Source: Zingiber officinale (Eukaryota > Streptophyta > Magnoliopsida > Zingiberales > Zingiberaceae). Taken from it: a DNA stretch of 64,000 nt. A model generated the notes under the pieces. It was not told where the DNA came from, made no database searches, and was given only the letters and a program-made list of their open reading frames with translations. Within the stretch, counting starts at the first letter, position 1, and every line of letters begins with the position of its first letter. Positions 1-30,946 of the stretch are shown piece by piece. Position numbers and translations under genes: made by a program. The DNA lies in contig NC_055994.1 in the NCBI RefSeq assembly GCF_018446385.1, positions 48,424,143 to 48,488,142 on the forward strand, read 5' to 3'.

Positions 1-730
1 AAACCACATGAGCTATTGTACCACAGGTGAGGGGAAACTTACATAGTTTTCGCTTGTTGATCCTTAAGGAAGTGGTACCCTTGTGAGGAGGGAGGAGAAG
101 TTTCTCTTCCTAGTTTCCCTTTTTGTTTTTCTTCTTCTTGTATGAGGTAGACCTTGAGACTCCTTGCTAGTATTTGTTTTCCCTTAGAGAGAAAACCTAA
201 ACTTGGCTTTTGGAGATGAGGGAGGAGAGCTCTAGTTCTCGGTGGAGAAGAGAAAGAGGATGAGGAAGAAGAAGATTTAGAATTTCCCTTTCTCTTTTCT
301 CCTCTAATCCTTTTTATTCATCGTGGGAAGGATTCTTGTCCCCATTCATCCCCCTTTATCTTCTCTTTAATTCCCACGAAAATGAGAAGGGAGAGAGGAG
401 AGGAAGGCAATTCACCTTTTGCTTGCTTCTTCTCTTAACCAAGAGGAAGAGGAGGAAAGCCACTTGGTTTTCTCTTGCTCTTTTTCTTAGTTTTCTTTTA
501 TTTTCTCCTCACCTTTAACTAAATTTTTCATTCCTTCCTATCCAAATATTATTCATTATTCTAGTGGTTACTTCACACTAATTTAACTCTATCATTTGTG
601 GGAGGTTCAAGGTTCAAACCTCAACCTCTCCTTCTTTTTATTTCTATTATTTCTTTTTGATTCCTCTTACTTTCATGCTCTAAAGAAAATACTATCCATA
701 TACTTATCTTATAATTTCATGGGTGTTACA
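1..730 (-). repeat. Partial LTR of a Gypsy-1 family element (left part outside window)
   Basis: This stretch aligns by eye with the terminal ~750 bases of both Gypsy-1 LTRs (ending at 14640 and 21367): the 'accacaggtgagggga' block, the purine-rich segment, the 'ttcaaggttcaaacc'-like block and the terminal GGGTGTTACA at 721-730. It stops exactly where a Copia leader sequence begins, so it is a separate insertion. The other end and the target duplication lie outside the window. Small open frames here (for example 336-518) are composition artefacts. Confidence 0.8.
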
Positions 731-1820
731 ATTGATTCCTCAAACAATATAATTTAAATTCACCAACACCTCAAAATACTGTGATTTTCATATGCCACGA
801 TAGTGTGGTCGTATACTAATTCAAACATTTGTAAGAGGAGGTTTTACCCATTAATTTTATTATCTTGTCAACCTAACTTTATGACAAATAAAATTAATAG
901 TTGATTCATCTTCGGTCACACAAATAATAGTAGTGACTCTGATGGGGAGGATACTATTAAATACGTCTAAGTATATACCATTACTTCATACTTAGTCCAT
1001 ATTAGGATTGTGTCCCTTCAGATGGAGAAGATCACACAAACCTAAATAATTTCCTATAATCATCCATAGAGGAAGTTTGATCAAGTGATCTGCAAACAAA
1101 CTCATCTGATATGGAGGAAGGCACTTAAAGCCAATGCGCAAGTTTGAATGCATCACTTACAAACCAGTAATGAAGACCGTGGAATTTATTTAAATAATCC
1201 CTCTCCTACATTGTTATTTAAATTGAGGAATTTTAACATGCACACACATCACAGCACACATCATAGCACATAAAATAGCATATAAAGGCAATAAATATGA
1301 AAATAAAATTTCCAACTATTATGCCCTCATCCAACGCTGCCCTTTAATATGCCGCCAATGGATCGATATCCTCCAATATGCCGTAAATGGAACAAGCCGT
1401 CGCGTCTATCTCGCTTCCTTCTCTGTCGCGCCTCCGGTCCTCAAAATAGAGCCATGTATAGCAAGGAAACAAGCCACAACAAAAAGAAAATAAAATTTAC
1501 ATTTATCGATCCTATATTCCACAAAGGAATTTACATGTAATCTAGATTGAACATAATGTAAATAATAATAATAATAATAACTGGTCGTATTTAATTATTA
1601 CAATCATGCACACACAACAACCTTGACAAGCACGAGGGTTCAAATCACAGAAAAACACACAAAGCCATAATAGTTGGACTTAGGACACTTGTAACCATAG
1701 AGTTAATCTTTCTTGCACATCCTACTATTATCTGGCCTAAACTTATGTATGAGCAGTATATAATTTAACCCAAAACCAATCACACAGAGGTAGAAAACTT
1801 GCTCTGATACCACTTGAAGG
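731..1820 (-). other. 5' untranslated leader of a Copia element (copy A)
   Basis: The sequence is collinear with the leader of the nested Copia-2 element at about 55350-56487. Shared landmarks include 'attgattcctcaaacaat', 'tatgccacgatagtgtgg' and 'gatggggag' blocks. It lies between a primer binding site at 1801-1812 and the Gypsy-1 LTR end at 730, which interrupts it before gag. No coding frame was recognised. Confidence 0.75.
1801..1812 (-). other. Primer binding site (initiator Met tRNA), Copia copy A
   Basis: The minus strand reads TGGTATCAGAGC, the standard plant retrotransposon primer site complementary to the 3' end of initiator methionine tRNA. It lies 8 bases inside the LTR end at 1821, which marks the LTR to its right as the 5' LTR of a minus-strand element. 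Confidence 0.85.
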
Positions 1821-2617
1821 CGTTGGAATTTCGTTCTGTTTAAATTTCCCTGTACAAAAATTGTACAAGTATAAAACTATTCCTAGCAACCCGCATGTTC
1901 GATCAAACATGTGTTTGATCAATCAAGCAAGTTCTTGATGAATCAAAGCACACCTTGATCAAAGTACAAGATCGCTGGCCTCTTGTGTTGGTATTCAAAA
2001 TCGATACAAAGAAAACTAACAAATTATGCAACGGAATTAAAGAACTAGTTGTACCTTTCTTCATAGCTAAAGACCTCTTGATCTTTTACCATATTCCTCT
2101 CCTCTTCTTGGACGTCGTGTGGGCGATGATCTACTAAGACAAAACCACCCTCCTTCTCTTCTCGATTTTCAAACCACTGGCTACAAAAGGAGACTCTAGG
2201 ATGGGGAACCTTCTTCTCTTCTTCCTTCTCCTCTTCTTCCTCTTCTCCACTTCTTCCTCTTCTTCCACTTCTTCAAGCCACTATCCACCAAGGAATAGGA
2301 GGGGGGCGCCGGCCCTAGTTGTAGAGGAGGAGGGGTGCCGACCCTTGTTGTAGAGGAGGAGGGGCGCCAGCCACTAGGAAGAGATGTGGTCGGCACTAGG
2401 TGGAGATGTGGGGCACCAACCACCAAGGAGGGGTGCCGACCCTAGTCAAGGGAGAGAAGAGAATTGTGAAATTAGATTTTAGGGGGCACCACCTACTCCT
2501 TTTCTAACCTCTGCCGCCAGTTACAAAGAAAGAAAAATAATAGAATTCTATATAGAAAAAATCTCCCTTTCTATAACCAAATTAAACCAAACCAAGTTAT
2601 AGATGGGTGGATGCGAG

Positions 2618-2645
2618 CACTACAACAAAAACTGCAAACGACAAC
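2618..2645 (+). repeat. CACTA left terminal inverted repeat
   Basis: These 28 bases match the reverse complement of 8656-8683 perfectly. The outer part is CACTACAACAAAAACTGC. Confidence 0.92.
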
Positions 2646-2890
2646 ACCCCTACGACAACAGATTTAAGAGAAAGCGTTGCGTATTTGCTCAAAGACAACG
2701 GTTTTTGCCAAAACCGTTTTCTTTGAACTCCCATTAAATATAAAAGACAACGGTTTTGGGAAAATTGTTGTCATTGAGTGATTTATTTTTGAATCAACAA
2801 TACTTTTTACAACGATTTTCTAAATCCGTTGTCTTTAAGCTCTTTTTTAGTGGCTACGATAATAGTTTTGATAAAACCATTGTATTTGAC
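2646..2890. repeat. CACTA left subterminal repeat region
   Basis: Repeated 10-15 base motifs of the type 'gacaacggtttt' and 'aaaccgttgtc' occur in direct and inverted order. The same motif family fills about 8265-8655 at the other end. In characterised CACTA elements such subterminal repeats bind the element's transposase; binding here is inferred. Confidence 0.75.
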
Positions 2891-3125
2891 TTTATTCTTT
2901 TTTTCCCCTGGCGCACAGTTCTGTTTTCCCTCTCTTTGAAAATTTTTTGGCGTCGTGTTTTCCCCTTCGCGTTCCTGAACACTAAGCCATTTTTCTTTCC
3001 CTCTCCCCATATAATCTCTTCACACCATCCTACCGACCGCTGGATATTCCTCCACGACGGTGTGCTCTCCTCTCTCTCTCACTCTCACCCTCACTCTTGA
3101 TTTGTCTACCTTTGCCTCCTAAAGG

Positions 3126-3449
3126 TTCGAGACAGGCCATGTCCTTGGTGTGCTCCTTGCATCTTCCCCTCTTCTGGAGCAAGCCTGGACCCGCTGCCTG
3201 CATGCCAATGCAGGTAGCGCCAGCTTCGTCATCGACAAGAGCGACGACGCAGTCTTCATCGCCTTCTCTAGGGCGCAAGCCGCCGCTTCGCCGTCTGGCC
3301 TTGGAAGAGGGTTCTTTGAACATGTTTCCCTATATAGCAGCACACACAAGCTCTTCGCGCTGCTGGGAAGAGGCGAAGAGGACAGCGGCAGGAAGCCGCA
3401 GCCCGTGCTCCTCCAGGTCGGCGCCCTCCGCTTGTTTATGAGCTTGTAA
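3126..3449 (+). pseudogene. Captured fragment resembling a PAD4/EDS1-family lipase-like gene
   Basis: One open frame from 3126 reads FETGHVLGVLLASSPLLEQA at its start, continues with a tryptophan and a segment SASFVIDKSDDAVFIAFS, and ends at a stop at 3447-3449. The pattern 'ETxHVLxxLLASxPLL..AW..C..A' followed by 'SFV...D.V.(I/V)AF(S/P)' resembles the N-terminal lipase-like domain of the plant PAD4/EDS1/SAG101 family, which acts in immune signalling. Only about 100 codons are present; the catalytic-like centre and the EP domain are missing. The segment is GC-rich and compact, unlike the AT-rich DNA around it. The assignment is from memory of the family, so a related alpha/beta hydrolase is possible. 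Confidence 0.5.
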
Positions 3450-4814
3450 ATAAGTAGAACGTGGGTTGGCTGGCGGTTAAAGCAAAGAAGATCCTCATCC
3501 TCTCTCTTGTTTGATCCCTCTCTCTGGTGGAGAAGAAATAAATGGTGGACCAAATCGATCTTGATTGGCCTTGCAGCCTTCCCTTTGTCCTTCTCCTCCT
3601 CCTCCTCCTTTCCTGCTCTCTCTCCCAACTCGCTTCGTTGTGTCACTCCAAATCATTTTGGAAAAACTCTGGCTTGGGATCGATCCATGATGGAGCACCG
3701 ATTGCTTCGACGGATGATGGCCCTAATCTTGCGGTGGCGTCGCCTATCGAGGTCAGGTAAAGTTTTGATTTTTCCTGGTGCTTTGCTTCCCGTGGTTGGA
3801 ATTTGGTGGAAATTGTAGGCGAGAATTGTTGGATTTTGCCGAAATTGTGCGCATCCTTTCATGTAGATATCCTTGGAGAAGTTGCTTTTTTTATGCCGAC
3901 GGAGTTTTCCAAATTAGTATTTTCTTTTCTTTTCCTTTTGAAAAAAAATCGCCATTTCTTCTTTTTTAGTTCAATTTAGCAGCTTTTGCTGCCGCTACAG
4001 GCTTTGGTTGTTCCTTGATGTATCAGAATAATTCAAAGATTGGAGAAGAATATGAAAACATACGTCTGTTTCGCATGTAAGCAAGCTTCTTCTGTAGGGT
4101 CTATAGTAGACTGCAAAGGCATCAGGATTTTAGCCATGGCATCCTTGTTTATTGTTGTTTTTGTTCATGTCTATAGAACTACAGCAGAGTCAGAGATGTA
4201 TATTTCTACATTATATGCTCCAAGAAGACTGTCCATTTTCTAACAAAGAGAGTCAACAAGTTTTAGTCAAAATAGGCTAATTTTTCCATGCCTAGAGAAG
4301 GCAACAGAATCTTTGATGTCGAAGTCAGTCTTACATTAAGAAGATTATGAAAAGATGACAAATGATCCAAGTTTGATCTGCTTTCCACCATAAAATTAGC
4401 ATGTGACCTCTTCTATACTCCTTTTGTTGTTTAGTCAGTATTAAGATAAGAAGTTATGATTTTAATTCATTAATCATGGTCCTGTATACCATTAACCAGC
4501 TCTCCTGAATTTTAAAAAACTAAAATTTTAATAAGATGTGCATCTAATTGGATTTTCTTTAAGGTAATAATGTGATCCTATGTTTCTCAAGGGCATAAGT
4601 TGATGTCTATTAATATCGTAATAACATGTTATCTTGTCTAGGTAGATTTGTGATTGTTTCTTTTATTGCTATTGTTAGCTGCTGATATCAGATACTCAAA
4701 ACAAGTCGGCAGTACCAGTTCCTTAAATAAAGTTTCTTTAAATATATTTTGAACTTTCAAATTACTTTCTTGAAGAATTTGATTCCAGTAGCTGACTGTA
4801 GAGTTTTTTCACAG
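3450..4814 (+). other. CACTA interior, origin not recognised
   Basis: A pyrimidine-rich stretch (3480-3640) is followed by an open frame at 3542-3760 (72 codons, with a Leu-rich hydrophobic segment near residues 13-28). Its end, 'gtcag|gtaaag' at about 3755, looks like a splice donor, so this may be a captured first exon or leader. I recognise no product. From 3761 to 4814 the DNA is AT-rich and intron-like, with no supported exon before the FEN1-like one at 4815. Confidence 0.3.
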
Positions 4815-5460
4815 GTAACCAAACAACATAATGAAGATTGTAAACGTCTCTTAAGACTAATAGGTGTGCCTACTATTGAGGTAAACTAGTCCACTTTCAC
4901 TTATTGAATTCTTTATCCTTGCTACAAGAATTTGAACTAACAATGATACAATTTTACTTTCTCTTGCAAACATTTCCTAAAGCTGCATGCAATTGCTTAA
5001 TATACAAGTATTGTATCTCTTATTTTAGAAGCTAAACTCATCTTTCTGATCTAAAGGCACCCTATGAAGAAGAAGCTCAATGTGCAGCTCTTTGCAAAAG
5101 TGACAAGGTAAAATGATGCAATGTAACACAATCTATTTTATTTTTTTAACTTTAAAATCCTAAACATATTTGTTTGTTAGCAATCTCTAGGCGTTTGCGG
5201 TTGCCTCAGAAGACATATATGGATACTTTAACTTTTGGGGCACCAAGGTTTTTTCATCATTTAATGGATCCTAGTTCCAAAAAAATCTATGTGATGAAAT
5301 TTGAAGTTTCAAAGGTATATTTATTCTGCTTATTGCTAATTGAATTACTGTATTTATTCTCATCCTTATTTTTCAGGTTCTTGAAGAGCTAAGACTCACT
5401 ATGGATTAGTTCATTGATTTGTGTATTCTCTCTGGATGTGATTATTGCGATAGCATTAAA
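4815..5460 (+). pseudogene. FEN1: Captured flap endonuclease 1 (FEN1) fragment, four exons, disrupted
   Basis: Four exons with AG/GT borders can be read: 4815-4880 ([20 protein letters not shown]...), 5057-5107 (APYEEEAQCAALCKSDK), 5191-5314 (AVASED, then [19 protein letters not shown]) and 5377-5460 ([31 protein letters not shown]). They are collinear with the middle of FEN1, the structure-specific nuclease that removes 5' flaps in DNA replication and repair. Family metal-binding acidic residues are partly present (the EEEA exon and the aspartate of GCDYC). Exon 3 has an extra 4 bases 'atat' in the ED-MD motif, shifting the frame, and exon 4 has TAG at 5407-5409 where the family usually has glutamine. 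The N terminus and the C-terminal PCNA-binding end are absent. Introns are retained, so capture was from genomic DNA and not cDNA. Confidence 0.88.
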
Positions 5461-5815
5461 GGTAAACTAGTTCCTTTGTAGCTCAATATCAAGGTCATTT
5501 CGTTAGTAGCTCTTTTGTCTTGAATCTTTGCTGTTTTCTGGACTGCTGATGGTTGAATTTATTGTCATATTACATCTACTTTTCCCTTTTTGAACTGTGA
5601 TGGCTTGCAGTCCTGGACTTTGAATTTCCCGTTGTAATGATTAACTTCGTGGGATTTCATATTTCTCGTGGTGAATTTATTCTAAGGAAGAACATTTTCG
5701 TGAATTTACTTATACAAAATTTATGGCCCAATAGTTCCAAATCCACAAGCTCGAAGGCATATTTTGAGACCACAATTTTGCTTGCTGTTCGTGAGTTCCT
5801 GACTTCCTTTTGCAG
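5461..5815 (+). other. Fusion intron between the FEN1 and MTHFR fragments
   Basis: A FEN1-derived intron donor (ggtaaac at 5460-5466) runs without other recognisable exons into an MTHFR intron acceptor (ttttgcag at 5808-5815). The breakpoint between the two captured genes must lie inside this 355-base stretch. If transcribed, the exons on both sides could be spliced together into a chimeric RNA. Confidence 0.5.
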
Positions 5816-6541
5816 GTCTGCATGGAAACTATTATGCACTTAACATGCACGAATATGCCTGTGGAGAAGATCGACCATGCTCTGAATACCATCAAGGCCA
5901 ATGGTATTCAAAATGTCCTGGCACTCAAGGGGGATCCTCCTCATGGTCAAGATAAGTTTGTTCAAGTGGCTGGTGGATTTGCATGCACCCTTGATCCGGT
6001 ATACTTCTTTCGTACATTTTAAAGTCTTTTGGCTTCATTTATGGGGATTTTAATAGCTCATGAGTGGCCTTTGTTGAGAATCCTCTTTATCTTTTATCTT
6101 CACTGACTGAACACTGAACATCAAGATATACTAATTTTGTAAATTGTCCTTTTGAAATATACATAACTAAATATGTGGGCTATGGTCTCCATGACCAATG
6201 AAAGTAATAGTCTTGTTTTTTTAGCGATTAAGTATTTGTACTAGAAAGTTTATCTTATTTTAGACATTTTTTTATTGTGTTAATGGATGTATTTTGCAAT
6301 TGGCTTACAGGTGCAGCATATTCGAGCTAAGTATGGAGATTATTTTGGTATCACTGTTGCTGGGTATCCAAGTCAATTTAGAACAATCTCAATCCAAATG
6401 CTATTTAGTTATTCATATTGACCATGAATGTTATTCCTAAATACATTTTCCATTTTAGAGGCTCATCCTGATATGATACAAGGAGATGAAGGTGCTACAT
6501 TGGAAGCCTATAACAGTGACCTTGCTTATTTGAAGAGAAAG
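5816..6541 (+). pseudogene. MTHFR: Captured methylenetetrahydrofolate reductase (MTHFR) fragment, three exons
   Basis: Exons 5816-5998 (61 codons: [15 protein letters not shown]..., [20 protein letters not shown]...), 6311-6371 (VQHIRAKYGDYFGITVAGYP) and 6459-6541 (AHPDMIQGDEGATLEAY...LKRK) are collinear with the catalytic domain of plant MTHFR, which reduces 5,10-methylene-THF to 5-methyl-THF. The [13 protein letters not shown] and HLTCTN motifs are family hallmarks. All three exons are open and the exon junction phases fit; the junction codon (6371 joined to 6459-6460) gives Lys where plants usually have Glu. Flanking exons of the TIM barrel and the regulatory C-terminal half are missing, so no functional enzyme can be made. 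Confidence 0.92.
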
Positions 6542-8264
6542 GTTCCTCACCATTATTATCTAGAACATGATTAATTCTACAACTTGACTGTGACTAATTA
6601 AGTAATGCCACAACAAGAATTTGTATTGCATAAGTTTTATTTCTTAGAGATTATAAGTTTGTATTGCATAAGTTTATATTGAATAAATTTTTTCTCTTCT
6701 GTTTTGCAGACATTGAGTGTTATCCTGAAATTCTAGAAATCCTTCTCTCATGTCAAGATATTAGAGCTATGCGAAATATTTATTCTCTGGTTACAGTTCA
6801 TGCAGTACCTACATATGGAGAACATTAATGGAAAACATGTGATTTATGGGCAGATTCAGTGATGTTGTGGTCTGAATGGGTGGATTGCATACAGACTATA
6901 TTCATTACTAGGTATAAATTACTAGACTTCAAAAGATGGTTTAACACTTTGTTTGTGACTCCATGACGTATTGATTTTGATTCCTTAGTGCCAATAATTT
7001 GTTTGTTTACAGCTAGCTATCTCCTTTTCTCAATACTTCATTCTTGCATTTCTACCATGAGCAGAATTAGCTGGCATTTCCCTTATTTATTGCCTCTCTT
7101 TGTTCTCATCTTTTGCTTTGATATGTCAATACCTAATATACATCCATGTGTTATCTTGCTGATTACACATTTTGTGAATTTAGTTATAGGTAAAGTCGTG
7201 GTGTCCTTATAATTTTGTTTGGCAACCATGTGTTATCTATGGTCAGGACTTCTACTTCCTTTTCCTAAAAAATGGTTGCCAAACATGCATCGAACAGTGT
7301 TTCTTGGTATGTTTCTTTGTGGTCCAAAATTAATAATGGTTGGGTTGTGTAAGTAGCTTATTTAGTTGTTTCTGAATTATGTAAGGACTGACAATGTGGA
7401 AGTTATCTCCTTATGAATTGTTAGATGATGACCTTTTGTATCTTATGAGTTTCTCTACAAATTTCTTGTTTGTTCTCTCCTTATGGTTTTCATCTATATG
7501 CCATGACTCAATCCTGTGTTTCCTCCTATCTCACAGTCTCCATGTATGCAAGGTGGTAAGGATGAGTTTACATCTTTAACATTTTATAGAAAACATCTAT
7601 ATACTGTAGTTTGATTTCTTAATAGTTTGCTCTATATAATGCATGTTAGTTTGGTCAAATGAGTGACAAGGAGGTATATTTCTCAAGGAAGAAAAGATCA
7701 TTCCTTCTTTTGTGTTGAGTATAATGTAATTTTGTCCTGCGTGAATGGATGTTGCCGACTGTTTCTTGATACACACTGATTTGTATCATTTTGTTTGACT
7801 TGTGTAGCATGAAACAACACCTAATATCTGTTCTATCTTGTATTATTTGTTTTCCAGGAATTCGTGTTGTCATGTATACTATAATCTGGAATTCTGGAAT
7901 TTGATAAGTTTTGTTAAATTTTTCTCTTGCAGGTCGGCAATTCGTGAGGCATGAGTTTTTTTGATGTAAGAAGTGAGCTTTGTTAGGATGTAGCTTGCCT
8001 TGCTAATTTGTAAATTAAAAGTCATATGGAGAACAGCAAATGAAAAACATGTGATTTAATGTATATGGAGAACAATAATGGAAATTATGTGCATTTTGAT
8101 GAGTAACAACTCATTTTATATATTTTTGTATATGTGGCTACAAGATGAATTATATATGGATGTTTATTTTGGATTTAATGCAGTAAATATTTAGTTTTGT
8201 ATTAGTGGTTTGCTTATAGTAAAATAAGATTGGTTGTTTGGTATTAATGAACATTAAAGACAAC
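6542..8264 (+). other. CACTA interior, no recognisable gene
   Basis: AT-rich DNA with only short unrelated frames (6988-7212, 7394-7579). An acceptor-like 'ttttgcag' at about 6709 precedes a short stretch with no family I recognise. Repeats of a 'tatggagaacattaatggaaaacatgtgattt' type phrase occur at about 6815-6845, 8022-8060 and 8061-8095, suggesting internal duplication. Nothing supports a gene. Confidence 0.5.
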
Positions 8265-8655
8265 AGTTAAAAATGTTGTAAAAACTAGGTAAACCACAAC
8301 GAAATTTTTTTATAAAAGTGATAAAAGACAACAATTTTATCCGTTGTAAAATATATTAAACCTGTTTAAAAAAAACAAAACGTGTCAAATATTATCTACC
8401 ACAACAGTTTATATTTTTGTAAAAAAAGTCTACCACAACGGTTTATTTCTGTTGTTGAAATTATCTACTACAACGGTTTTAAAACGTTGTCGTATCCTTC
8501 GTAGCCAAATTTTGAGCATATATACAACAATGGATAAAAACTGTTGTCAAATGTCTACAAAGACAACGGAATCAAAACCGTTGTCGTAGGGCCCTACATT
8601 CTACAACGCCCTCAGTTACAACGGTTTTTTCACCCTACGACAACGGATAATATCC
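8265..8655. repeat. CACTA right subterminal repeat region
   Basis: About ten copies of 'acaacggttt'/'aaccgttgtc'-type motifs occur, including a short hairpin just inside the right TIR (gacaacggataatatccgttgtc at 8638-8660). Composition is unlike the captured gene DNA on its left. Confidence 0.75.
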
Positions 8656-8683
8656 GTTGTCGTTTGCAGTTTTTGTTGTAGTG
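8656..8683 (-). repeat. CACTA right terminal inverted repeat
   Basis: This is the perfect 28-base inverted partner of 2618-2645, followed by the target duplication GAG at 8684-8686. Confidence 0.92.
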
Positions 8684-9619
8684 GAGACTTTATATAGAGG
8701 CTACAACAGGGACCTAGAGGAGGAATTGGTATAGACCTCCTGATGGGCTTGGGCTTCCTGTGTTCAGCCCGAACACACAACCCAAGTCCATCAATAATAA
8801 CTCATACAACTAAAGGGTTATTATTAAACTACCGCACCAATCCCATATTACAATATGGGCTCCTTCTTATCATGAGTGCGTTAATCTCCCTGTGTTTAAG
8901 ATATCGTATGTTCGTTAATTAATTGAGTTACTGACAACCCAATTAATTAACATATGATTCCATGAGTAGTACCACTAAACTTTATTATCATGCCGGACTA
9001 AGTTCACCTGCAGGGTTTACATGATAATCCTTATGAGCTTCTCAAGGGTACATCATCTGTCTAAATAATTAGGACACAGATTCCTTCTATAATCAACAAC
9101 ACACCATATAAATAATACTATCTCCCAACTCATTGGGCCTATTGATTTAACAAATAAATCTCACCCATTGATAAGTTAAAGAAATAAATACTAAGTATAC
9201 GTGCTTGTTATTATATAGGGATTAAGAGGACGCACATCCATAATAATAGAGGTTCTGTTCTTTTATGTAGTCAGTATAAATCCAACAACCTCAAATGGTC
9301 CTGCTCAATACACACATAGTGTACTAGTGTAATTTTATAGTCAAGACAAATTAATACCAAATAACACTACAACCATTCCAATGGTTTGTCCCTATCCATC
9401 TTGGTTGTGAGCTACTATTTATAATTTATAAGGAACCGATAACATGATCTTCTGTGTGACACCACACACCATGTTATCTACAATATAAATTAAATGGACA
9501 ACTGTATTGACATATATACAAATATAAAATGCAAACATTTGTGCAAAGTGATTCTCATTTCAAAATATTTCAAAATAGATGTTCATACAAAAGCTAGGCT
9601 TATAGTATACATTCCAACA

Positions 9620-9717
9620 ATATCTATCCTTCTTCTCTTTAGGCTTTGATTTTTGACTAGCTAGACTCGGAGCTACGTGCAGTGGCCTTTCTTCAGGGTG
9701 ATCTTTCTTCTTCTCCT
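9620..9717 (-). other. 98-bp Copia-like coding island between two LTRs
   Basis: On the minus strand this short piece is open and reads as a Lys/Glu-rich linker (EKKKDHPEERPLHVAPSLA...). It resembles the charged region of a Copia gag before the zinc knuckle. It sits exactly between the end of LTR A (9619) and the start of LTR B (9718), so it is probably what remains of an older element into which both inserted. The gag origin is a guess from composition. Confidence 0.3.
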
Positions 9718-11739
9718 TGTTGATTGCTACTCGGAATACCATTCTAGTTCCCCTGTATAAAAATTTATACAAGCATAGAACTATCCTAGCTATTCATGTG
9801 CTCTACCGAAGTTAAATTTGAATTGCAAACGATGCTTAACATTATTAATTCGAATTGTCCTTCAGAAGTTAAACTTGGATTGGAAACGATACTTAACATT
9901 TTTAATCCAAGTTTAATCGATGTGATCTTCCTAAGTTAAACTATATTACAGAAGTTATCAAATATCTATTTCAAAGATCGGCTTCCAGGTTAAACATGAC
10001 GAGGCACTAGGCCTTCTTGGGTATGGGATCATCCACCACTTCCTAGACAATGTCTTTCAAAGAAATCGGATATTTAACTTCTTACAGTAAACTAGGTTTA
10101 ACTATAGAGACCTCAATAGAAACACATTATCGAAATATGAAATCAAAAAATAAAATCGATAACAAAAATGATAACTTAAAACTGATAACCTATTGTGGTT
10201 GGTTTTTCAAGATCTATACAAAAGATGAACTAGTTATGATGCAGAAACTAATAATTAGTTATACCTCTTGTAGCTTATAGACCTCTTGATCTTCTGTCGT
10301 ATTCCCCTCCTTCTCTTGGACGTCGTGTGGGCAACGATATTCTAATATGAAATCCACTCAAGCTTCTTCCAAGGCTTCCAAGATCCGGCCACCAACTATC
10401 CTCCAAGGGATGCTAGACAAGAGAGCTTCCTTCTCTTCTTCTTCTCCTTCAAGCCACCGACCACCAAGAGATCTCCACACAAGATCTCACCGACCACCAA
10501 GAGAGAAAACAAAAGGAGAAGAGAGAACGACACGGGCCGACCACCAAGGATTGGAAGAGAGGAATAGACGATGTGTTATGGGTGAGGCACCCCCTCCTTC
10601 TCTTTTATAATCCTAGGTCTTGGAAAAAAAGGAAAGTTTTAAACATAATTAAAACTTCCTTATATTCCTTGCCAATGACAAAAGGAAAGTTTTAAAACAA
10701 AAAATTAAAACTTCCTTTTATACTTGTCATGGCCGGCCACCTACTTGTGCTCCAAACAAAAAAAGTTTTAAACATAAAATTAAAACTTCCTTATTTATTT
10801 TCGGTAAGAAATTTTTAATAAAAAATTTCTCTTTTAAATCCCTTGTTGGTTATAAAAGGAAAATTTTATAAATTAAAATCTCTCTTTTAAAACATGTGGA
10901 TGGTTACAAAAAAGGAAAGTTTTATCAAAAATTAAAATCTTCCTTTTAACTACAAATAAGGAAAGATATCAAACCTTTCTCTTAATCTTTTGTAGAAAGC
11001 TATAAAAGGAAAGATTTTAAAATTTTAAAACTCTCTTTTAAAACCATGGCTTCCACAAAAGAAAAGATTTTAAAAATTAAAACATCCTTTTATTTTAATG
11101 TGGTTGGCCACCTTGCTTGGGCTCCAAGCTTGGCCGACCATTAATCTTGGCTCCATCCTTTGGTTTGGTCGGCTCTAGCTTGGGCTCCAAGCTTGGCTTG
11201 GCCGGCCACCATAAGATGGGTAAGTTGGTATGTAACGCCCGCCTCTCTCATATGACGGGGTTACGAGAACATACATGCATATTAATATATTTCTAAAGCA
11301 GCGGAAGTATTTATTTATATATTTTTCTTTTCTATTAAACACAAATAACTAATTATTTAAACATCTATAATCATGTGAGCATGTTTAGCATAATTTTAAA
11401 TTTAAGAAGTCATGATATCAATTTCTAACATAAGCATGAATAAGTGTTAAGTAATCATGCAAAACATTAACATAGGGTAGGCATAGTTCATAACAAGCAA
11501 AAATTAACATAAGCAGGTCTTTTTCCTTAGCCGAGCCACCACCACACACATCTCTTGCCCCTCCTGCTACTCCCTTAGTTTATCCATCCTTTACCTTTAT
11601 TTGCGGTACAAGGAAAGTAAACTTTAAGCACACAGGCTTAGTAGGATCCTTTCCTACTCACAAAAAAAACATATATCATAGCATAATCACATAAGCATAT
11701 AGCATGGAGACATAATCATCTAAATATCATATCATGTAA

Positions 11740-12005
11740 AAGAGCATCATAACATATCATATCATCTTGTATAAGAGTATCGTATGACATATCATATCAT
11801 GAAAGAGCATCATGTCATATCATATCATAACATATCATATCATAAAAGAGCATCATGTCATATCATATCATAAATGAGCATCATGTCATATCATATCATA
11901 ACATATCATATCATAAAAGAGCATCATGTCATATCATATCATAACATGTCATATCATAAAAGAGCATCATGTCATATCTTATCATAACATATCATATCAT
12001 AAAAG
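11740..12005. repeat. CATATCAT-rich tandem array in Gypsy-1 LTR
   Basis: Imperfect units built from 'catcatgtcatatcatatcataacatatcataaaagag' recur about six times with period near 43-45 bases. The sister array in the other LTR is at about 18480-18725 with fewer units, so the array length has changed since insertion. Confidence 0.8.
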
Positions 12006-12619
12006 TGCATGCAAGATGTCTTTCAAAAACATGCGTTATGTCATGTGCAAGATGTCTTTTAAAAAAACATATCATATAATACTTAAATATAATCTCAACA
12101 TGAGGGCCCGGCTATGTACCACATAACATAAATGCACGCAATCCCTAGTATGGGGTAGCTAGTCCCGAACCTACTAGGAAACTAGGTCCGTACTACGACC
12201 GTCGACCTAGGGGCGAACTAAGGAGCCCATCCCTTGGACACTAAGGTCCGGTACAAGCCATATAAAAAGTAAAGTAGCATGTCATATTTACTTATCATAT
12301 CATGAAGAGTGCCCTTAGTCCCTACTAATAGGGAAGCAACACTTAGGCCTTTACTTGTCATATCATAAAGAGTGCTCTTAATCCCAACTAATAGGGAAGC
12401 ATCTCTTAGGCCTTTTCTTGTCATATCATAAAGCATGCATACTTGAGCATATAACCCATCATAAGAGTCATTATCATGCATGATTCATAAGAATACATAA
12501 ATGAGCATATAACATATCATAGGGAAACATAATCATGCATGAAAAACATTAACTATCATCTCCTAATTCATATCATAGCATGTGAGACACATAGTAAATC
12601 ATAATTGGGTCTCCAACCC

Positions 12620-13860
12620 TAATTCCAAGGAGTGGTCGAAACATGCAAGGTATTGTCCTTGGCCACAAGAAACATAAAAGGATATGAACCCTAAACCAAC
12701 TTCCTAGCACTTATCATAAAGAACATCATGAGCATGTTTAGTTTAGGTTCTAAGCTTCCTAGGTCTTTTAATCTTGTTATGGCCGAAACTTGCCAAGCAT
12801 GAATCTAGGTTACAAGTAACATAAAAGCATGTAACCCTAAACCAACTTCATATCATATACCATAAGGAACATCATGAGCATGTTTAGTTTAGGTTCTAAG
12901 CTTCCTAGATATTTTAATCATGTTATGGCCGAATGTTTAAGGAGCATGAAACTAAGTCTGAGCAACATACAAGAATAAGAATATCAAGCTAAATTCATAT
13001 CATATCATAAGGAAAACCATGAGCATGTTAGATTTGATTTTAAGCTTTCTTAGACCCTTAATCTCATCATGGCCGAAACCCTAAAGTGGGATGCATCTAG
13101 GTTTCAAGCAACATGCGAGCATGAACACACTAAGTAATCTTCATACCATATCATAAGAAAAGTCATGACCATGATAGATTAAATTTTAAACTCTTCTAGA
13201 CCTTCATTTCCATCATGGCCGAAACCCTAAAACCCTAAAGTGGCATGAATTTAGGTTCCAAGCAACATACAAGTATGAAAACACTAAGAAATCTTCATAC
13301 CATATCATAAAGAAAGTCATGAGCATGATAGATTAAATTTTAAACTCTCCTAGGCCTTCATTTCTATCATGGCCGAAACCCTAAAACCCTAAAGTGGCAT
13401 GCATTTAGGTTCCAAGCAACATACAAGTATGAAAACACTAAGAAATCTTCATACCATATCATAAAGAAAGTCATGAGCATGATAGATTAAATTTTAAACT
13501 CTCCTAGGCCTTCATTTCTATCATGGACGAAACCTACTAGGCATAGATCTAGATTTCAAGCAACATAAAAAAAAATATTGGAACTCTAAACAGAACTCAT
13601 ATCCTAAGTTACATATCATAAGGGACATCGTGAGCATGTTTAGTTAGGTCTTAAGCTTTCCTAGGTGTTTTATTCAAGCCTTGGCCGAAAGTTTAAAGAA
13701 TATGAATCTAAGTTCTAAGCAACGTACAAGCATAATAACACTAAACTACTCTCCTATCATAGGGTACATATCTTAAGAAACGTAGTGAGCATGTTTAGTT
13801 TAGGTCTTAAGCTTCCTTAAGTTTTTATACTTTGGTGGCCGAAAGTTTCAAGAAGCAACC
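12620..13860. repeat. ~150-bp tandem repeat in Gypsy-1 LTR
   Basis: Nine units are marked by a TGGCCGAAA-type core at about 12634, 12778, 12920, 13066, 13213, 13369, 13523, 13681 and 13838, spacing 142-158 bases. Each unit also carries 'catatcataaggaacatcatgagcatg' and 'ggttccaagcaacata' blocks. The same array is in the other LTR at about 19345-20575. Confidence 0.85.
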
Positions 13861-14640
13861 CTAGATTTTTCAGCAATCTAAACTCATGGAAAAACACATG
13901 AACTACTTGTACCGCAGGTGAGGGGATACTTACTTCCTCTTGCTTGGTTTTATTTTTCTTAAAAGAAGGTACCCTTGTGAAGAGGAAGAAGAAAGCTTCT
14001 CCTTCTAGTTCTCCCTTTTTGCTTCTCTTGCTTGTAAGGAGTAGATCTTGTGGACTCCTTCTTGTGAATTAGTTTTCTTAGGGAGAAAACCTTAGCTTGG
14101 GATTCGAAAATGGGAGAGGGGAGAGTTTTAGGTCTTGTTGGAGGAGGAAGAAGGAGAAAGAAGGAGGAGGAAGAAGTAGCCAACCTTTCTTTCCCTTCTC
14201 TTCTCTCATTCCTATTTATCCTCAATGAGGAAAAAGGAAAAATGTCCCAATTCATCCCCTTGATTCCTCTATTCCCTCACCCTCATTCATTCTCACGAAA
14301 ATAGAAAGAAGAAAGAAGAAAAAGGCAACTTGTCTTTTTTCTTTTGCTTGTTTCTTCTCTTAACCAAGAGAAAGAGGAGGAAAGCTACCTGACATTTTCT
14401 TTCTTCCTTACTTAATCATACTCTTGCTTTTAACTACAAATTTCCATTCTTTGCTAATCATATATCATTCATGACTCTATTGGTTATTATACACCAATTT
14501 AGCTTTATCTATTGTGAGGAGTTCAAGGTTCAAGCCTTAACTTCTCTCCCTTTTTATTTCTTTTTGGTTCTATTTCCTTTTTCCTTTTATTCTAAAAGAG
14601 AATACCCATATGTATAGCTAAAAATTTCAAGGGTGTTACA

Positions 14641-14655
14641 ATACCCCAAACCTCA
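14641..14655 (-). other. Gypsy-1 polypurine tract
   Basis: The minus strand reads AGGTTTGGGGTAT directly before the LTR start TGTAACACCC, the expected priming site for plus-strand DNA synthesis. Confidence 0.75.
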
Positions 14656-14679
14656 TAGAAAGTTCATCCTCGAACTTAG

Positions 14680-14801
14680 AATAGCTCCGGGTACTTACGT
14701 TTCATATCGTCTTCGTGTTCCCAAGTGGCTTCTTCGAACCGTTAATTTTGCCACAGGACCTTTACTAAGGGTACCTCTTTGTTTCTTAGCCTTTTGATAT
14801 C
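14680..14801 (-). pseudogene. Gypsy-1 chromodomain remnant
   Basis: Following the integrase frame and its stop, the minus strand still reads DIKRLRNKEVPLVKVLWQN, a stop, then RFEEATWEHEDDMKRKYPEL. This is the chromodomain-like tail of Tekay/Del-type chromoviruses, thought to guide integration to heterochromatin. Two stops (at the junction with integrase and in the middle) disrupt it. Confidence 0.75.
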
Positions 14802-15785
14802 TCAGTCTAATATCTGAACCGGTCGGCTCTCATAACATAGGTCCTCTTGGACTTGTACTGTCTGTAGTTCGATCACTTGGTCCGTCCTTGGAATACATTT
14901 CTTTAGCATCGAAACATGGAACACGTTGTGGATAGCTGACATCTCCTGAGGCAGCTCTATTTCGTAAGCTACCTTGCAAACTCTTTTCAGAACTTGATAT
15001 GGTCCCACATAGTGCGGGCTTAGCTTTCCCTTCTTTCCGAACCTCATCACTCCTTTCATAGGAGCTACCTTGAGGAATACTGAATCTCCGACACTGAATT
15101 CCAATGGCCTTCGTTGCTTATCTACGTAATTCTTCTGTCGACTCTGAGAAGTTTCTATTCTTTGGCGGATGTTCTGTATATCACGGGTGGTGTTGTCAAT
15201 GAACTCTATTCGAAATCCCATCTCCTTCTTTTCACCGCCTTCGTACCAACATATAAGGAATTTACATTTCCTCCCGTACAAAGCCTCGTAAGGCGCCATT
15301 CCAATAGTAGCTTGGTAACTATTGTTGTAGGCGAATTCCGCTAAGCATAGATATCGGCACCAGCTCCCCTTGAAGTCTAAGGCGCAAGCTCGTAACATGT
15401 CTTCTAGTACTTGGTTCACCCTTTCTGTTTGACTTTCGGTTTGAGGGTGGAAGGCAATACTGAACAATAGCTTTGTTCCAAGAGCCTTCTGAACACATTC
15501 CCAAAAATGTGAAATAAAGCGACCATCTCTGTCAGAAATAATGGTCTTAGGAATCCCATGTAATCTAATAATTTCCTTGACATATAATTGAGCCAGTTGC
15601 TCAATCGAATAGGTCATCTTGATTGCTAGGAAATGGGCGGATTTTATTAATCTGTCTACGATTACCCATATAGCGTCGTAGCCATTTGTTGTTTTAGGTA
15701 ATCCTGAAATAAAGTCCATAGAGATATCTTCCCATTTCCATTCTGGAATTTGGATTGGCTGTAGTAATCCTCCAGGTCTCTAGTG
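14802..15785 (-). pseudogene. Gypsy-1 integrase
   Basis: The open frame 15719-14802 (305 codons) starts at the first catalytic aspartate region (MDFISGLP), has the second (IISDRDGRF) and a third-acid region reading HPQTESQTER where the family normally has TDGQ; the downstream glutamate is kept. After the core come GPYQVLKRV and HNVFHVSMLKK, typical of the C-terminal DNA-binding part of Gypsy integrases. Upstream codons for the WKWEDIS segment are readable to about 15780, where a stop (TAG near 15781) separates it from the zinc-binding part. The integrase joins element cDNA to host DNA in the nucleus; this copy is broken upstream. Confidence 0.9.
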
Positions 15786-15792
15786 TTCTGCT

Positions 15793-16950
15793 TTAACCCT
15801 CTGGCATGTCAGACAGGTACTGACATACTGAGCCACGTCTCTTTTCATACCGGACCACCAAAATTTCTTTTTTCAGGTCTTGGTACATCTTGGTGGATCC
15901 AAGATGCATCGCATAGGGTGTTACGTGGGCTTCTTCCAGTATCTTCTTTCGCAACTCTTGGTCGTCGGGAATACATAAGCGATCCTTGAGGTATAATATT
16001 CCACTGTCAGCGATATTGAATCCATCATTCTTTCCCTCTAGGACTTCTCGCTTGATCCTCTGGATGCTTGGGTCACGGGTTTGCTTCCCCAATATATCAT
16101 CGAACATCGTCGGTGCTATAGTCAGGGTAGAGAGCTGTCCGGACACATTTTCGGCCCCGTAGCACCAAATTTCCCTTGGTTTCCCAATAAATTCAAACAT
16201 CGGTTCTACTTCAGGCCGGAAAATCACTTTTCTCTTACGACACTCTATTGAAGCACTGTACTTGCTCAGGAAATCCATGCCCAATATACTATCATAATCT
16301 TGCATGTCAAGTACTATCAGATCACAGTAGAGTTCTCTGTCTGCGATTTGGATAAGCACGGCTCGCAGCATATGATTAGATGGCATCACTTCTCCCGAAG
16401 GCAGGGTCATTAAGAACTTGCGATCTAAGGCTTGGGGTGGCATGTCTATCTTTTTCATGAAGGGTGTAGAGACAAACGAGTGTGACGCCCCAGTATCAAA
16501 TAACACAGTAGCATACTGACTGAAAATAGGTAGCTGACCTGTGACAACTGTAGAAGCACTCGCCACATCTTCTTTGGTGAGAGAGAAAACCCTGGCATTC
16601 GTCGTAACTGGCGGGGATTCCAATCTCCCTTGGCTAATCGGAGTCCCTTCTATGGCAGCTTGCATCTGGTGTAGCTGTGAGGGGGCACTCCTGTTCTGGT
16701 TATACTGCTGGGATGGTGCCTGGAACCGGATAGGGCAGTCTCTAGCCATATGTCCTTCCCATCCGCAATTGTAGCACTTTTTCGTACCCTTGTGGCATAC
16801 CCCAGAATGTTGCTTCCCACAAGTGGTACACTGAGGGTACTTAGGTTGCTTATTCGCTGGACCACCTTTAGCGTTGTTCCATTGCTTTCTTTTTCCATTA
16901 GGGTTTCCTTTCCAGCTTGCTCTGGTACCTTGAGGTTTCTGTCCTTCTGT
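15793..16950 (-). pseudogene. Gypsy-1 zinc knuckle, protease and integrase H2C2 fused by RT/RNase H deletion
   Basis: Reading down from 16950 the frame gives a CCHC knuckle (CYNCGWEGHMARDCP near 16780-16730), then an aspartic protease with active-site VLFDTGASHSF (near 16500) and the ILGMDFLSKY segment. About 20 codons after the protease ends (EFIGKPREIW) the sequence jumps to QLSTLTIAPTMFDDILGKQ and the H2C2 zinc-binding region of integrase ([16 protein letters not shown]). The roughly 450 codons of reverse transcriptase and RNase H that belong between are missing. A frameshift after DLKK scrambles the end of the H2C2 domain (shadow of TCLTCQ). The element cannot copy itself and would depend on a partner. 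Confidence 0.88.
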
Positions 16951-17730
16951 CTATGCTTGATTCTTACTCTCGTTCATCGCCTTCTGATAGTGTTTGGTGA
17001 TCAGGGCACTACTGACCAGCTCTTCTGTAGTCTGCGGTCTATTAATTTCGCCGGCCACATTCAAAGCTATCTCGGGTCGGAGCATCTTCAGCATCAGTCT
17101 GACTCTTTCTCTTTCCGTGCTGGCCAACTCTGGGCAGAGGCGTGCGAGACGGTTGAAGCGCTTCACGGCTTCGTTAACTGATAAGTCACCTTGTCGGAAC
17201 TCGGTGAACTCGTCGTAATACCGGTTTGTTACCCGCATATGGAAAATCTCCTCGAAGAACTCTGCTTCGAAGTCCGCCCAGTTCATCTGATTAACTTGTC
17301 TCTTAGCCTTAACTCTTTCCCACCATATTCTTGCATCTCCGGAAAAACAGAATGACACACATTTGATCTTTTCCGATACAGGCCAGTCCAGTAATTCCAC
17401 AATACTTTCCACCGTCTTGAACCAGGCTTGGGCATCCCATGGCTCACAAGTACCCGATAAGTTCTCCGACTTCAGCCTTAGCCACTGTATTAAGTAAGTC
17501 TCTTGTCGGACCACTGGGGCAGGGGCTACCGGTGGTACTGGTGCAGCTGTAGGCATGACGGGCAATGTATTCTGATTTGCTGGTGGGGTGGCAGGGTTTC
17601 CTTGCTGATTCATCAAAGCAGTGATTACTTGTTGTTGTTCCGTGATCTGACGCTGGAGGTCTGTGACTACATGTGTCAGATCTGGTGGAGTCACTGTCTC
17701 ATCGGTCCCGTTACCGCGTCTTCTAGCCAT
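16951..17730 (-). pseudogene. Gypsy-1 gag
   Basis: The likely start is the ATG at 17730 (MARRRGNGTDETVTPPDLTH); an upstream in-frame extension to 17817 lacks gag character. A Gln-rich coiled segment is followed by the Retrotrans_gag core (CEPWDAQAWFKTVESIVELL, then WPVSEKIKCVSFCFSGDARI and DFEAEFFEEIFH). The frame stops at TAG (16951-16953) inside NQA-stop-TEGQKP; the related fragment at 63392-64000 has CAG at that position, so this is a point mutation. Past the stop the same frame continues into the zinc knuckle. Confidence 0.9.
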
Positions 17731-17967
17731 ATCTATCTTCATAAATGACAATAAGTCTAGCATAAGTCCATGGTCATCCCTACTTATATCCGTGCATATT
17801 AAAACATCGCTTATCATACATAAAGGATATTCGTATCAGTTATACTTATGTTCATGCATACTAAAAGCATTTCTTATCATGCATAAAGAAATAGAGTAAG
17901 TACAAAGATTCTTACTTGGAGCGGCAGGATGGAGGCTTGACGTGTGTGTAGTGGGAAGGCTAACCTG

Positions 17968-17982: not shown

Positions 17983-20900
17983 TGTAATGCCCGCCCTTCT
18001 CATATGACAGGGTTACGAGAACATACATGCATATTAATCTATTTCTAAAGCAGCGAAAGTATTTATTTATATATTTATCTTTTCTTTTAAACACAAATAA
18101 CTAATTATCTAAACATCTATAATCATGTGAGCATGTTTAGCATAATTTTAAATTTAAGAAGTCATGATATCAATTTCTAACATAAGCATGAATAAGTGTT
18201 AAGTAATCATGCAAAACATTAACATAGGGTAGGCATAGTTCATATCAAGCATAAATTAACATAAGCAGGTCTTTTTCCTTAGTCGAGCCACCACCACACA
18301 CATCTCTTGCCCCTCCTGCTGCTCCCATAGTTTATCCATCCTTTACCTTTAACTGCGGTACAAGGAAAGTAAACTTTAAGCACACAGGCTTAGTAAGATC
18401 CTTTCCAACTCACAAAAAAAATCATATATCATAGCATAATCACATAAGCATATAGCATGGAGACATAATCATCTAAACATCATATCATGTAAAAGAGCAT
18501 CATAACATATCATATCATCTTATATAAGAGTATCATGGCAAACGTATCATATCATGAAAGAGCATCATGTCATATCATATCATAACATATCATATCATAA
18601 AAGAGCATCATGTCATATCATATCATAACATATCATATCATAAAAGATCATCATGTCATATCATATCATAACATGTTATAACATAAAAGAGCATCATGTC
18701 ATATCATATCATATCATAAAAGTGCATGCAAGATGTCTTTCAAAAACATGCGTCATGTCATGTGCAAGATATCTTTTTAAAAAAACATATCATATAATAC
18801 TTAAATATAATCTCAACAAGAGGGCCCAACTATGTACCGCATAACATAAATGCGCGCAATCCCTAGGACGGGGTAGCTAGTCCCGACCTACTAGGGAACT
18901 AGGTCCGTACTATGACAGTCGACCTAGGGGCGAACTAAGGAGCCCATCCCTTGGACACTAAGTTCCGGTACAAGCCATATAAAAAGTAAAGTAGCATGTC
19001 ATATTTACTTATCATATCATGAAGAGTGCTCTTAGTCCCAACTAATAGGGAAGCAACTCTCAGGCCTTTACTTGTCATATCAAAAAGAGTGCTCTTAATC
19101 CCAACTAATAGGGAAACATCTCTTAGGCCTTTTCTTGTCATATCATAAAGCATGCAAACTTGAGCATATAGCCCATCATAAGAGTCATTATCATGCATGA
19201 TTCATAAGCATACATAAATGAGCATATAACATATTATAGGGAAACATAATCATGCATGAAAAACATTAACTATCATCTCCTAATTCATATCATAGCATGT
19301 GAGACACATAGTAAATCATAATTGGGTCTCCAACCCTAATTCCATGGAGTGGCCGAAACATGCAAGGTATTGTCCTAGGCTACAAGAAACATAAAAGCAT
19401 ATGAACCCTAAACCAATTTCATAGCACTTATCATAAAGAACATCATGAGCATGTTAAGTTTAGGTTCTAAGCTTCCTTGGTCTTTTAATCTTGTTATGGC
19501 AGAAACTTGCCAAGCATGAATCTAGGTTACAAGTAACATAAAAGCATGTGAACCCTAAACCAACTTCATATCATATACTATAAGGAACATCATGAGCATG
19601 TTTAGTTTAGGTTCTAAGCTTCCTAGGTATTTTAATCATGTTATGGCCGAATGTTTAAGGAGCATGAAACTAAGTCTAAGCAACATACAAGAATAAGAAT
19701 ATCAAGCTAACTTCATATCATATCATAAGGAAAACCATGAGCATGTTAGATTTGATTTGAAGCTTTCTTAGACCCTTAATCTCATCATGGCCGAAACCCT
19801 AAAGTGGGATGCATCTAGGTTCCAAGCAACATGCGAGCATGAACACACTAAGTAATCTTCATACCATATCATAAGAAAAGTCATGAGCATGATAGATTAA
19901 ATTTTAAACTCTTCTAGACCTTGATTTTATCATGGCCAAAACCCTAAAACCCTAAAGTGGCATGCATTTAGGTTCCAAGCAACATACAAGTATGAAAACA
20001 CTAAGAAATCTTCATACCATATCATAAAGAAAGTCATTAGCATGATAGATTAAATTTTAAACTCTCCTAGGCCTTCATTTCTATCATGGCCGAAACCCTA
20101 AAACCCTAAAGTGGCATGCATTTAGGTTCTAAGCAACATACAAGTATGAAAACACTAAGAAATCTTCATACCATACCATAAAGAAAGTCATGAGCATGAT
20201 AGATTAAATTTTAAACTCTCCTAGGCCTTCATTTCTATCATGGCCGAAACCTACTAGGCATAGATCTAGATTTCAAGCAACATAAAAAAAAACATTAGAT
20301 CTCTAAACAGAACTCATATCCTAAGTTACATATCATAGGGGACATCATGAGCATGTTTAGTTAGGTCTTAAGCTTTCCTAGGTCTTTTATTCATGCCTTG
20401 GCCGAAAGTTTAAAAATATGAATCTAAGTTCTAAGCAATGTACAAGCATAAGAACACTAAACTACTCTCCTATCATAGGTACATATCTTAAGAAACGTAG
20501 TTAGCATGTTTAGTTTAGGTCTTAAGCTTCCTTAAGTTTTTATACTTTGGTGGCCGAAAGTTTCAAGAAGCAACCCTAGATTTTTCAGCAATCTAAACTC
20601 ATGGAAAAACACATGAACTACTTGTACCACAGGTGAGGGGATACTTACTTCCACTTGCTTGGTTTTTTTTTTCTTATAAGAAGGTACCCTTGTGAAGAAG
20701 AAGAAGAAAGCTTCTCGTTCTAGTTCTCCCTTTTTGCTTCTCTTGCTTGTAAGGAGTAGATCTTGAGGACTCCTTCTTATGAATTAGTTTTCTTTGGGAG
20801 AAAACCTTAGCTTGGGATTCGGAAATGGGAGAGGGGAGAGTTTTAGGTCTCGGTGGAGGAGGAAGAAGGAGAAAGAAGGAGGAGGAAGAAGAAGGAGGAA

Positions 20901-30288: not shown

Positions 30289-30890
30289 CTTGATGAGTTT
30301 AGATAGGGGAAGAATTATCTAGCGTTGGAAAAATGGAACTCAAAGAACAAAACTTCAAAGAGCAAAGATCTTAGGTTAGGAGAACAAAAAGTCCAAGTCT
30401 TAGAGAGGAGGAGAATCCGGATCTAAGAGATCTTGAGAGATTAGAGAGGAGTTTTTAAGAGATTGGGAGAGAAAGAGATGTTTTGGAGAGTTGGGGGTGT
30501 GCGGAACACGGCCAAGATCTGGCCGTGTAAGGTAGAAAGAAGACTTAAATAACTCTCCTACACGGGCCGTGCAGATCCACACGGCCTCCCCCTCTTCCTT
30601 CTCTGGATTCTTCGCACGGCCGTGTCTGGGACACGGCCTCTCCATCTTTCTTCTCGGAATTCTTTGCACGGCCGTGTTTGGGACACGGCCTAGTCCTTTT
30701 TCTCCTCGGGAGATCCTACACGGCCGTGTCTGGATGACACGGCCCAAGCACTTCCCTTCTCTGCAACCTTTGCCTGGCCGTGTATAGTACACGGCCGGGC
30801 TCTGTTTTGCACCTAACCTGAAAACAAAATCAAAAGAATGCATCAAACTAAAAGAAATTAAAATACAAATCAAAACTAACTAAAAGAGCC
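30289..30890. repeat. Internal ACACGGCCGTGT array between protease and ORF-1-like gene
   Basis: Between about 30495 and 30815 six units again pair a CACGGCCGTGT palindrome with a nearby ACACGGCC half-copy, as in the LTRs, but with different spacers. The rest of the interval is purine-rich. Frames through the array (30400-30873) read as repeated TRPC/HGRV peptides, a by-product of the repeat. Confidence 0.8.
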
Positions 30891-30946
30891 CTTGTGTTGC
30901 CTCCCAAGAAGTGCTTGTTTAAGGTCTTTAGCTCGACCAAACTTGA

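Follow-up and report, generated by a model that had tools for sequence, protein, structure and literature searches.

In a window of 64,000 nucleotides from the genome of ginger, Zingiber officinale (C9:48424143-48488142 within the assembly; positions below are those of the window), we found that the stretch 2618-8683 is very probably a non-autonomous Pack-CACTA transposon of ginger, whose cargo of host DNA from the PAD4, FEN1 and MTHFR genes would have been gathered stepwise as genomic DNA and then spread as a passenger. The element and its insertion site are made up of the following parts:

2615-2617, no strand: left copy of the target-site duplication, GAG
2618-2645, plus strand: left terminal inverted repeat (TIR), 28 bp, starting with CACTA
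2618-3074, plus strand: 5' backbone with subterminal repeats of the type GACAACGGTTTT, 84% identical to a sister family
3075-3448, plus strand: captured PAD4, consisting of the end of an intron and an internal exon (from 3124) that is cut short at 3448; 90.1% identical to the parent, L042
3449-4036, plus strand: foreign 588-bp segment, substituted for 199 bp of L042, the PAD4 parent; possible source C13:36874834-36875412 / C14:29005491-29006078, at 94-95%
4037-4715, plus strand: captured PAD4, consisting of an intron and the first bases of the next exon; 95.4% identical to L042
4727-5468 (start approximate), plus strand: captured FEN1, exons 4815-4880, 5057-5107, 5191-5314 and 5377-5461 with introns
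5467-6638, plus strand: captured MTHFR, exons 5816-5998, 6311-6371 and 6459-6541 with introns
6639-7836, plus strand: segment of unassigned origin, with an exon-like stretch at ~6710-6787 that is used by ginger gene models
7837-8683, plus strand: 3' backbone with subterminal repeats and the last exon of some gene models (~7938-7956), 90% identical to the sister family
8656-8683, minus strand: right TIR, 28 bp
8684-8686, no strand: right copy of the target-site duplication, GAG
8687-9620, plus strand: repeat, probably a long terminal repeat (LTR), with the element inserted near its left edge; no insertion in its copies at 21368 and 23900

The ends of the element are those of a CACTA transposon, a superfamily in which the transposase binds the TIRs and the target is duplicated over 3 bp (PMC8978399). 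The two TIRs, each 28 nt long and beginning CACTACAACAAAA, are 100% complementary and are flanked by GAG on both sides, as a preliminary description of this DNA had stated. A query with 18 nt of the TIR, allowing up to 3 mismatches, returned two matches in the window, both of them element ends, where 0.11 would be expected by chance. Direct and inverted subterminal repeats, a further feature of the CACTA superfamily, are present at both ends: of 70 matches to the motif GACAACGGTTTT in the window, with as many as 3 mismatches allowed, 43 lie outside the element and 27 within it, and 23 of these 27 fall in 2618-2900 or 8240-8683. When the two flanks of the element are joined, the related repeats at 21368 and 23900 align across them with no insertion in between, and hence represent a paralogous empty site. 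In a six-frame Pfam scan of 2618-8683, with stops read as X and E up to 0.01, only MTHFR and XPG_I were matched and no transposase domain was found. Elsewhere in the genome the Transposase_21 domain is abundant, with all listed rows exceeding the cut-off (150 of 6544 candidates scored). The TIR had no match in a scan of bacterial and archaeal genomes, and the one exact 20-base match in a viral collection (contig L001, 1942-1961) is most likely due to chance.

Upon searching the two-haplotype assembly (3,090,333,446 bases in 211 contigs), we obtained whole or nearly whole copies at 96-100% identity from at least 20 places on many contigs, the window's own included (25 of 3274 candidates scored), and found the captured MTHFR exon at at least 35 places. 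Twenty places were fetched, yielding 19 near-full copies and one broken in two; identical 3-bp duplications flank 16 of these 20, and no duplication longer than 3 bp was visible in the flanks. Three of the copies (L010-L012) sit at the same insertion site as the window's, with L010 and L012 on C10, apparently the other haplotype, and L011 between flanks that are colinear with the window at 98-99%, in a duplication ~612 kb off on the same contig, so that 14 separate insertions with matched duplications are counted, the window's included. An ordinary gene cluster is ruled out by these many copies with 3-bp duplications on many contigs, and the gene order that the preliminary description had proposed to look for at a host locus lacking TIRs was instead found to recur between TIRs with differing 3-bp duplications. 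Across 21 aligned rows, four of which represent the window's single insertion site, the median pairwise difference was 2.6% (210 pairs), and 2.1% (120 pairs) without L010-L012 and the truncated L026 and L027. At the rate published for ginger LTRs, 6.5e-9 per site per year (PMC8342499), the 2.1% would roughly correspond to ~1.6 million years, or less if mutation is faster at methylated sites. One pair of copies on C10, L023 (C10:83787276-83793549) and L026 (C10:83746816-83753110), lies ~40 kb apart in opposite orientation with a common 3' flank, and one of the two has lost its 3' end, which looks like a rearrangement at one insertion.

The cargo proved to consist, as had been proposed, of pieces of three unrelated host genes in one orientation, with PAD4, FEN1 and MTHFR all on the plus strand and with exons that do match their families in Pfam, in the PDB or among ginger proteins. 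The common orientation alone says little, since three pieces would be co-oriented by chance one time in four. As introns are retained, the captured material was DNA and not mRNA. Elsewhere in the genome there are complete PAD4 and MTHFR genes, as well as FEN1-like genes on C1/C2 and C21/C22. The MTHFR block aligns without a break, introns as well as exons, to the C5/C47 locus (L051/L052) over 1174 columns at 93.6%; its parent lies at C5:164.29 Mb, and the block is recognized in Pfam at E=2.3e-22 on the plain window reading and 1e-33 on a typed spliced fragment, and in the PDB at E=4.5e-21. The MTHFR gene on C13/C14 was rejected as parent, being only 84-85% alike around the exons, with one 74% stretch across an intron. 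In one copy, L029, the second MTHFR exon carries a ~71-bp insertion that partly repeats that exon.

What the preliminary description had taken for one probable PAD4/EDS1-like piece is indeed PAD4 (PDB 'Lipase-like PAD4', E=5.4e-11; 82% amino-acid identity to the ginger PAD4 protein P0005; no match in Pfam scans), but it is really two pieces, split by the 588 bp. Its parent L042, at C3:14.55 Mb, is colinear with the captured material, introns included. We rejected the lost start codon as a sign of decay, because the exon is internal, with a splice acceptor before 3124, and the parent is alike at this edge. A protein search with the fragment gave 16 matches, 14 from Zingiber officinale and two from Curcuma, and a query of the genome gave at least 72 matches, 14 of them within complete PAD4 genes; the other 58 are copies of a single exon, whose location inside elements was demonstrated for the fetched ones only. 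With 40 of 41 candidates scored, the 588-bp segment returned 40 matches, including two that belong to a single place, and it occurs within 8 kb of all 35 listed MTHFR-exon places. Its matches without a listed MTHFR exon are at C14:19.68 Mb, which has PAD4, and at C18:12.53 Mb, C13:36.87 Mb and C14:29.01 Mb. The last two, at 94-95%, start at base 4 of the query, have no PAD4 exon among the matches listed and may be the source of the segment, as judged against MTHFR and PAD4 match lists in which 69 of 164 and 74 of 122 candidates were scored.

The FEN1 piece reached E=1.9e-5 for XPG_I on the plain window reading, barely over the family cut-off, and E=3.8e-18 on a typed fragment joining its exons across a frameshift; for a 47-residue part of it, the best PDB chains were those of FEN1, at 52 bits versus 27.5 for XPG. 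With a probe of C-terminal FEN1 sequence, we found 19 FEN1-like genome matches, at C1:27.4-28.6 Mb, C2:31.8-33.0 Mb and C21/C22 (34 of 34 candidates scored). The plus-strand exon-intron fragments that the preliminary description had assigned to FEN1 and MTHFR were both matched to these families with introns present.

A sister family of elements records an order of capture. Two of its copies were fetched (L043 and L044; 5945 and 5947 bp, 97.95% alike), with duplications AAC and TTT and with 28-bp TIRs that show one mismatch in L044. They hold the window parts 2618-3448, 4037-4474, 4727-5468 and 7837-8683, that is, the TIRs, both backbones, the left PAD4 junction and FEN1; neither matches the MTHFR block or holds the 588-bp segment. 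Between PAD4 and FEN1 they contain ~2 kb that is absent from the window, and related protein models carry a glutamate-glyoxylate aminotransferase fragment at this place. The left PAD4 joint, located in a CT-rich repeat, is at the same parental base (1205 of L042, reverse complement) in both families, suggesting that PAD4 was captured only once. Just past the point where the window switches to MTHFR, the sister elements run on into DNA upstream of a FEN1 exon (82-83% over 460 columns, L053), a stretch to which the window has no match. As the sisters continue into FEN1-locus DNA where the window turns to MTHFR, MTHFR was probably added after PAD4 and FEN1. In a protein tree built from 19 PAD4 rows, the window-type pieces, the sister-type pieces and the PAD4 genes fall on three separate sides that are moderately supported (94/92, 80/78 and 94/87); upon midpoint rooting the PAD4 genes stand beside the window type, while rooting among the genes makes the two element types sisters. 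This grouping depends on the root, and the tree therefore does not decide on one capture.

We suggest that PAD4 and FEN1 were already present in an ancestral element as intron-containing genomic DNA, and that a CACTA transposase supplied in trans by a presumed partner would recognize the 28-bp TIRs and subterminal repeats and leave the 3-bp duplications. The window branch, which also carries the 588-bp segment, would then have gained the MTHFR piece and spread, reaching ~37 places when alleles and duplicated regions of the two-haplotype assembly are counted. The most likely route of capture is that host DNA was copied or joined while an excision gap was repaired. Merging, in which two related elements flank a gene piece and then move as one, is the published Pack-TYPE model and has been proposed for Arabidopsis Pack-CACTA elements (PMC8903248; PMC13317346), and the 5' and 3' backbones that enclose all cargo would fit it. 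Under this model relic ends might be found between the pieces, but no TIR relic was detected at the internal junctions of the window copy (up to 3 mismatches), although such relics could have been lost, and the 4 of the 27 subterminal-motif matches that lie inside the cargo are about as many as the 43 matches outside the element predict. We consider merging possible but the less probable route, and favor repair-associated copying or joining with moderate strength, because PAD4 and MTHFR are colinear with their parents, relics of internal ends are lacking and 2 bp are shared where FEN1 meets MTHFR.

Compared with the sister element L044, the FEN1 piece has a 4-bp insertion in its third exon and a TAG stop in its fourth. 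The frameshift is found in all 21 aligned rows and the stop in 20 of them; L044 is without the 4 bp, L043 has a 5-bp gap there, and the sister copies read CAG and CAA in place of TAG. Judged by this alignment, both lesions predate the spread of the copies. Across 18 rows, with L010-L012 and the frameshifted FEN1 exon omitted, we counted 112 distinct nonsynonymous changes and 40 distinct synonymous ones, for a ratio of nonsynonymous to synonymous change (wN/wS) of 0.96, and the exon changes among the copies look neutral. Transitions have hit 53% of CG, 43% of CHG, 11% of CHH and 4% of A/T sites (51%, 39%, 9% and 3%, respectively, in the 16 rows without the two truncated ones). Such a bias toward CG and CHG is a methylation-type pattern, from which the family appears to have been methylated. 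Among the copies, the PAD4 exon 3126-3446 has a variant density 3-5 times that of the cargo introns, mainly through CG and CHG transitions, and the 5' end of the element is about as variable. We propose that the cargo is a passenger whose usual state is probably silenced, given the neutral exon changes and the methylation-type mutations, and from which spliced chimeric RNAs, as well as small RNAs matching MTHFR and to a lesser degree PAD4, could arise.

An effect of the copies in trans on PAD4, FEN1 or MTHFR, exerted by small RNAs that derive from the captured exons, seems improbable. Exact 21-mers shared between the window copy and the parent exons number 123 of 258 for MTHFR and 30 of 323 for PAD4, and the methylation-type mutations would fit a silencing of the copies; most 21-mers of the PAD4 exon, however, no longer match the parent. 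For the MTHFR piece, the exact identity to the parent suffices for a direct small-RNA comparison, and a trans effect on MTHFR is conceivable. Still less probable, and to be taken as speculation, is that the layered sense-oriented elements, with a PAD4-FEN1 core and then the aminotransferase or MTHFR and with most splice sites intact, serve as a dispersed trans-acting source of chimeric or small RNAs that would tune the immunity gene PAD4 together with a repair nuclease and a folate enzyme.

We think it very unlikely that the chimera is, or became, a working gene under selection for a PAD4-FEN1-MTHFR fusion protein. The idea draws on 17 ginger gene models that join such pieces (P0001-P0004, P0006, P0008-P0013, P0015, P0016, P0133-P0135 and P0150), four of them (P0001, P0002, P0003 and P0015) with PAD4, FEN1 and MTHFR together; P0002 can be read in frame from PAD4 into MTHFR by way of a single short FEN1 exon, and most rows retain the GT/AG splice sites, with single exceptions in, e.g., L018, L019 and L028. 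Against it stand the wN/wS across the copies and the ancestral frameshift and stop in FEN1, around whose broken exons P0001, P0002 and P0015 splice. The names displayed for these chimeras are those of hypothetical proteins of the ZIOFF set, which likewise argues against a working gene; among the 17 models, some are named MTHFR, XPG-domain protein or exonuclease. From their composition, as opposed to a mapping of each model, the 17 models look like pieces of such elements. As transposon-type cargo appears to have been modelled as genes, gene-family counts in ginger may be inflated by models built from captured pieces. Two of the models hold further pieces, of an ABC transporter in P0016 and of an AUX/IAA protein in P0004. 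Finally, although Helitrons and Pack-MULEs also capture gene fragments (PMC13317346), we reject these element types as well as an assembly artefact as almost certainly wrong on account of the 28-bp CACTA TIRs, the 3-bp duplications at many sites with none longer, and the copies on many contigs.

Several observations weigh against the account of a CACTA element with stepwise captured passenger cargo. No matching duplication was found in four of the 20 fetched copies (L016, L023, L026 and L027, of which L026 and L027 are truncated), and none of the Transposase_21 matches in the genome, among the candidates scored, was tied to the TIRs of the element. The segment 6639-7836 has no assigned donor, unlike the PAD4 and MTHFR pieces, and the captured FEN1 is identified by family, with no exact parent aligned to its exons; the FEN1-locus stretch L053 aligns to the sister elements and not to the window. 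The PAD4 piece of the sisters stops at parent position 2211 and that of the window at 2452, and with the shorter piece in the sisters the window type would come from a common ancestor and not from the present sister type plus MTHFR. Lastly, wN/wS varied from 0.29 to 4.16 across the short exons, its overall value leaves out the broken FEN1 exon, and the captured exons compared with the PAD4 and MTHFR parents gave 0.62 (24 nonsynonymous and 14 synonymous changes), a value that includes parental constraint.

The ginger element is a well-supported further member of the known class of multi-gene Pack-CACTAs. The soybean CACTA element Tgm-Express1 at wp is 5.7 kb long and carries five gene fragments that are spliced into chimeric transcripts (PMC1947982), and maize Pack-TYPE elements often carry several loci, with Pack-CACTAs holding the most distinct ones (PMC8903248). 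This agrees with the statement of the preliminary description that capture of several genes is known for Pack-type elements, and it does not support the suggestion that the combination is unusual in kind. Like the ginger element, Tgm-Express1 is a CACTA of similar size whose exons and introns stem from several host genes unrelated to one another. It differs in species, in its genes and in having five fragments. Its spliced chimeric transcripts arise from the F3H promoter and have been observed, whereas the ginger element is known here from sequence alone; in ginger, by contrast, there are many copies and, besides them, a sister family. The Pack-CACTAs of maize and Arabidopsis are likewise described as non-autonomous, with CACTA ends and coding DNA from several loci, but the 3-bp duplications of the ginger element differ from the 5 nt given for the rice and maize CACTA set in the Pack-TYPE paper, and its internal junctions without relic ends from the Pack-CACTA merging model. 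CACTA elements of Chenopodium, as described in PMC8978399, share TIRs, subterminal repeats, the 3-bp duplication and host gene fragments; in comparison, the interior of the ginger element is mostly host DNA and yielded no transposase domain in the six-frame Pfam scan. Within ginger, the sister family with PAD4, the aminotransferase and FEN1 is likewise close, set apart from the window type by the ~2-kb block and by the MTHFR block and 588-bp segment that it does not have.

The 18-base TIR string was not found in the literature search, which did not extend to subscription papers, so that a report of this family may exist; with the same restriction, no paper contained three or more of the terms CACTA, PAD4, flap endonuclease and methylenetetrahydrofolate reductase. 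The titles surveyed for ginger and CACTA were unrelated, the term also matching Cactaceae, and 'cacta' is absent from the main text of two ginger genome papers. Taken together, two sister families, two aligned parents, the junctions and many separate insertions allow the stepwise capture of genes by CACTA elements to be followed in order.

A unit of 24-36 nt (TATGGAGAACA...) occurs three times in the element, at 6812-6847 in the unassigned segment and at 8023-8058 and 8062-8098 in the 3' backbone. Around the element, window positions 1-2599 and 8663-17754 belong to a segmental duplication at 98-99% with C9:47.81-47.83 Mb (L030 and L031), ~612 kb away. Blocks at 12633-13857, 19350-20622 and 59126-60557 are internally repeated, some of them also in inverted form. 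Retrotransposon frames surround the element on the minus strand (14802-17835, 28788-32632, 43549-47808, 53216-55333 and 61043-62104), and the 10 frames scanned hold protease, reverse transcriptase and integrase domains as well as gag domains of the Athila and Copia types.

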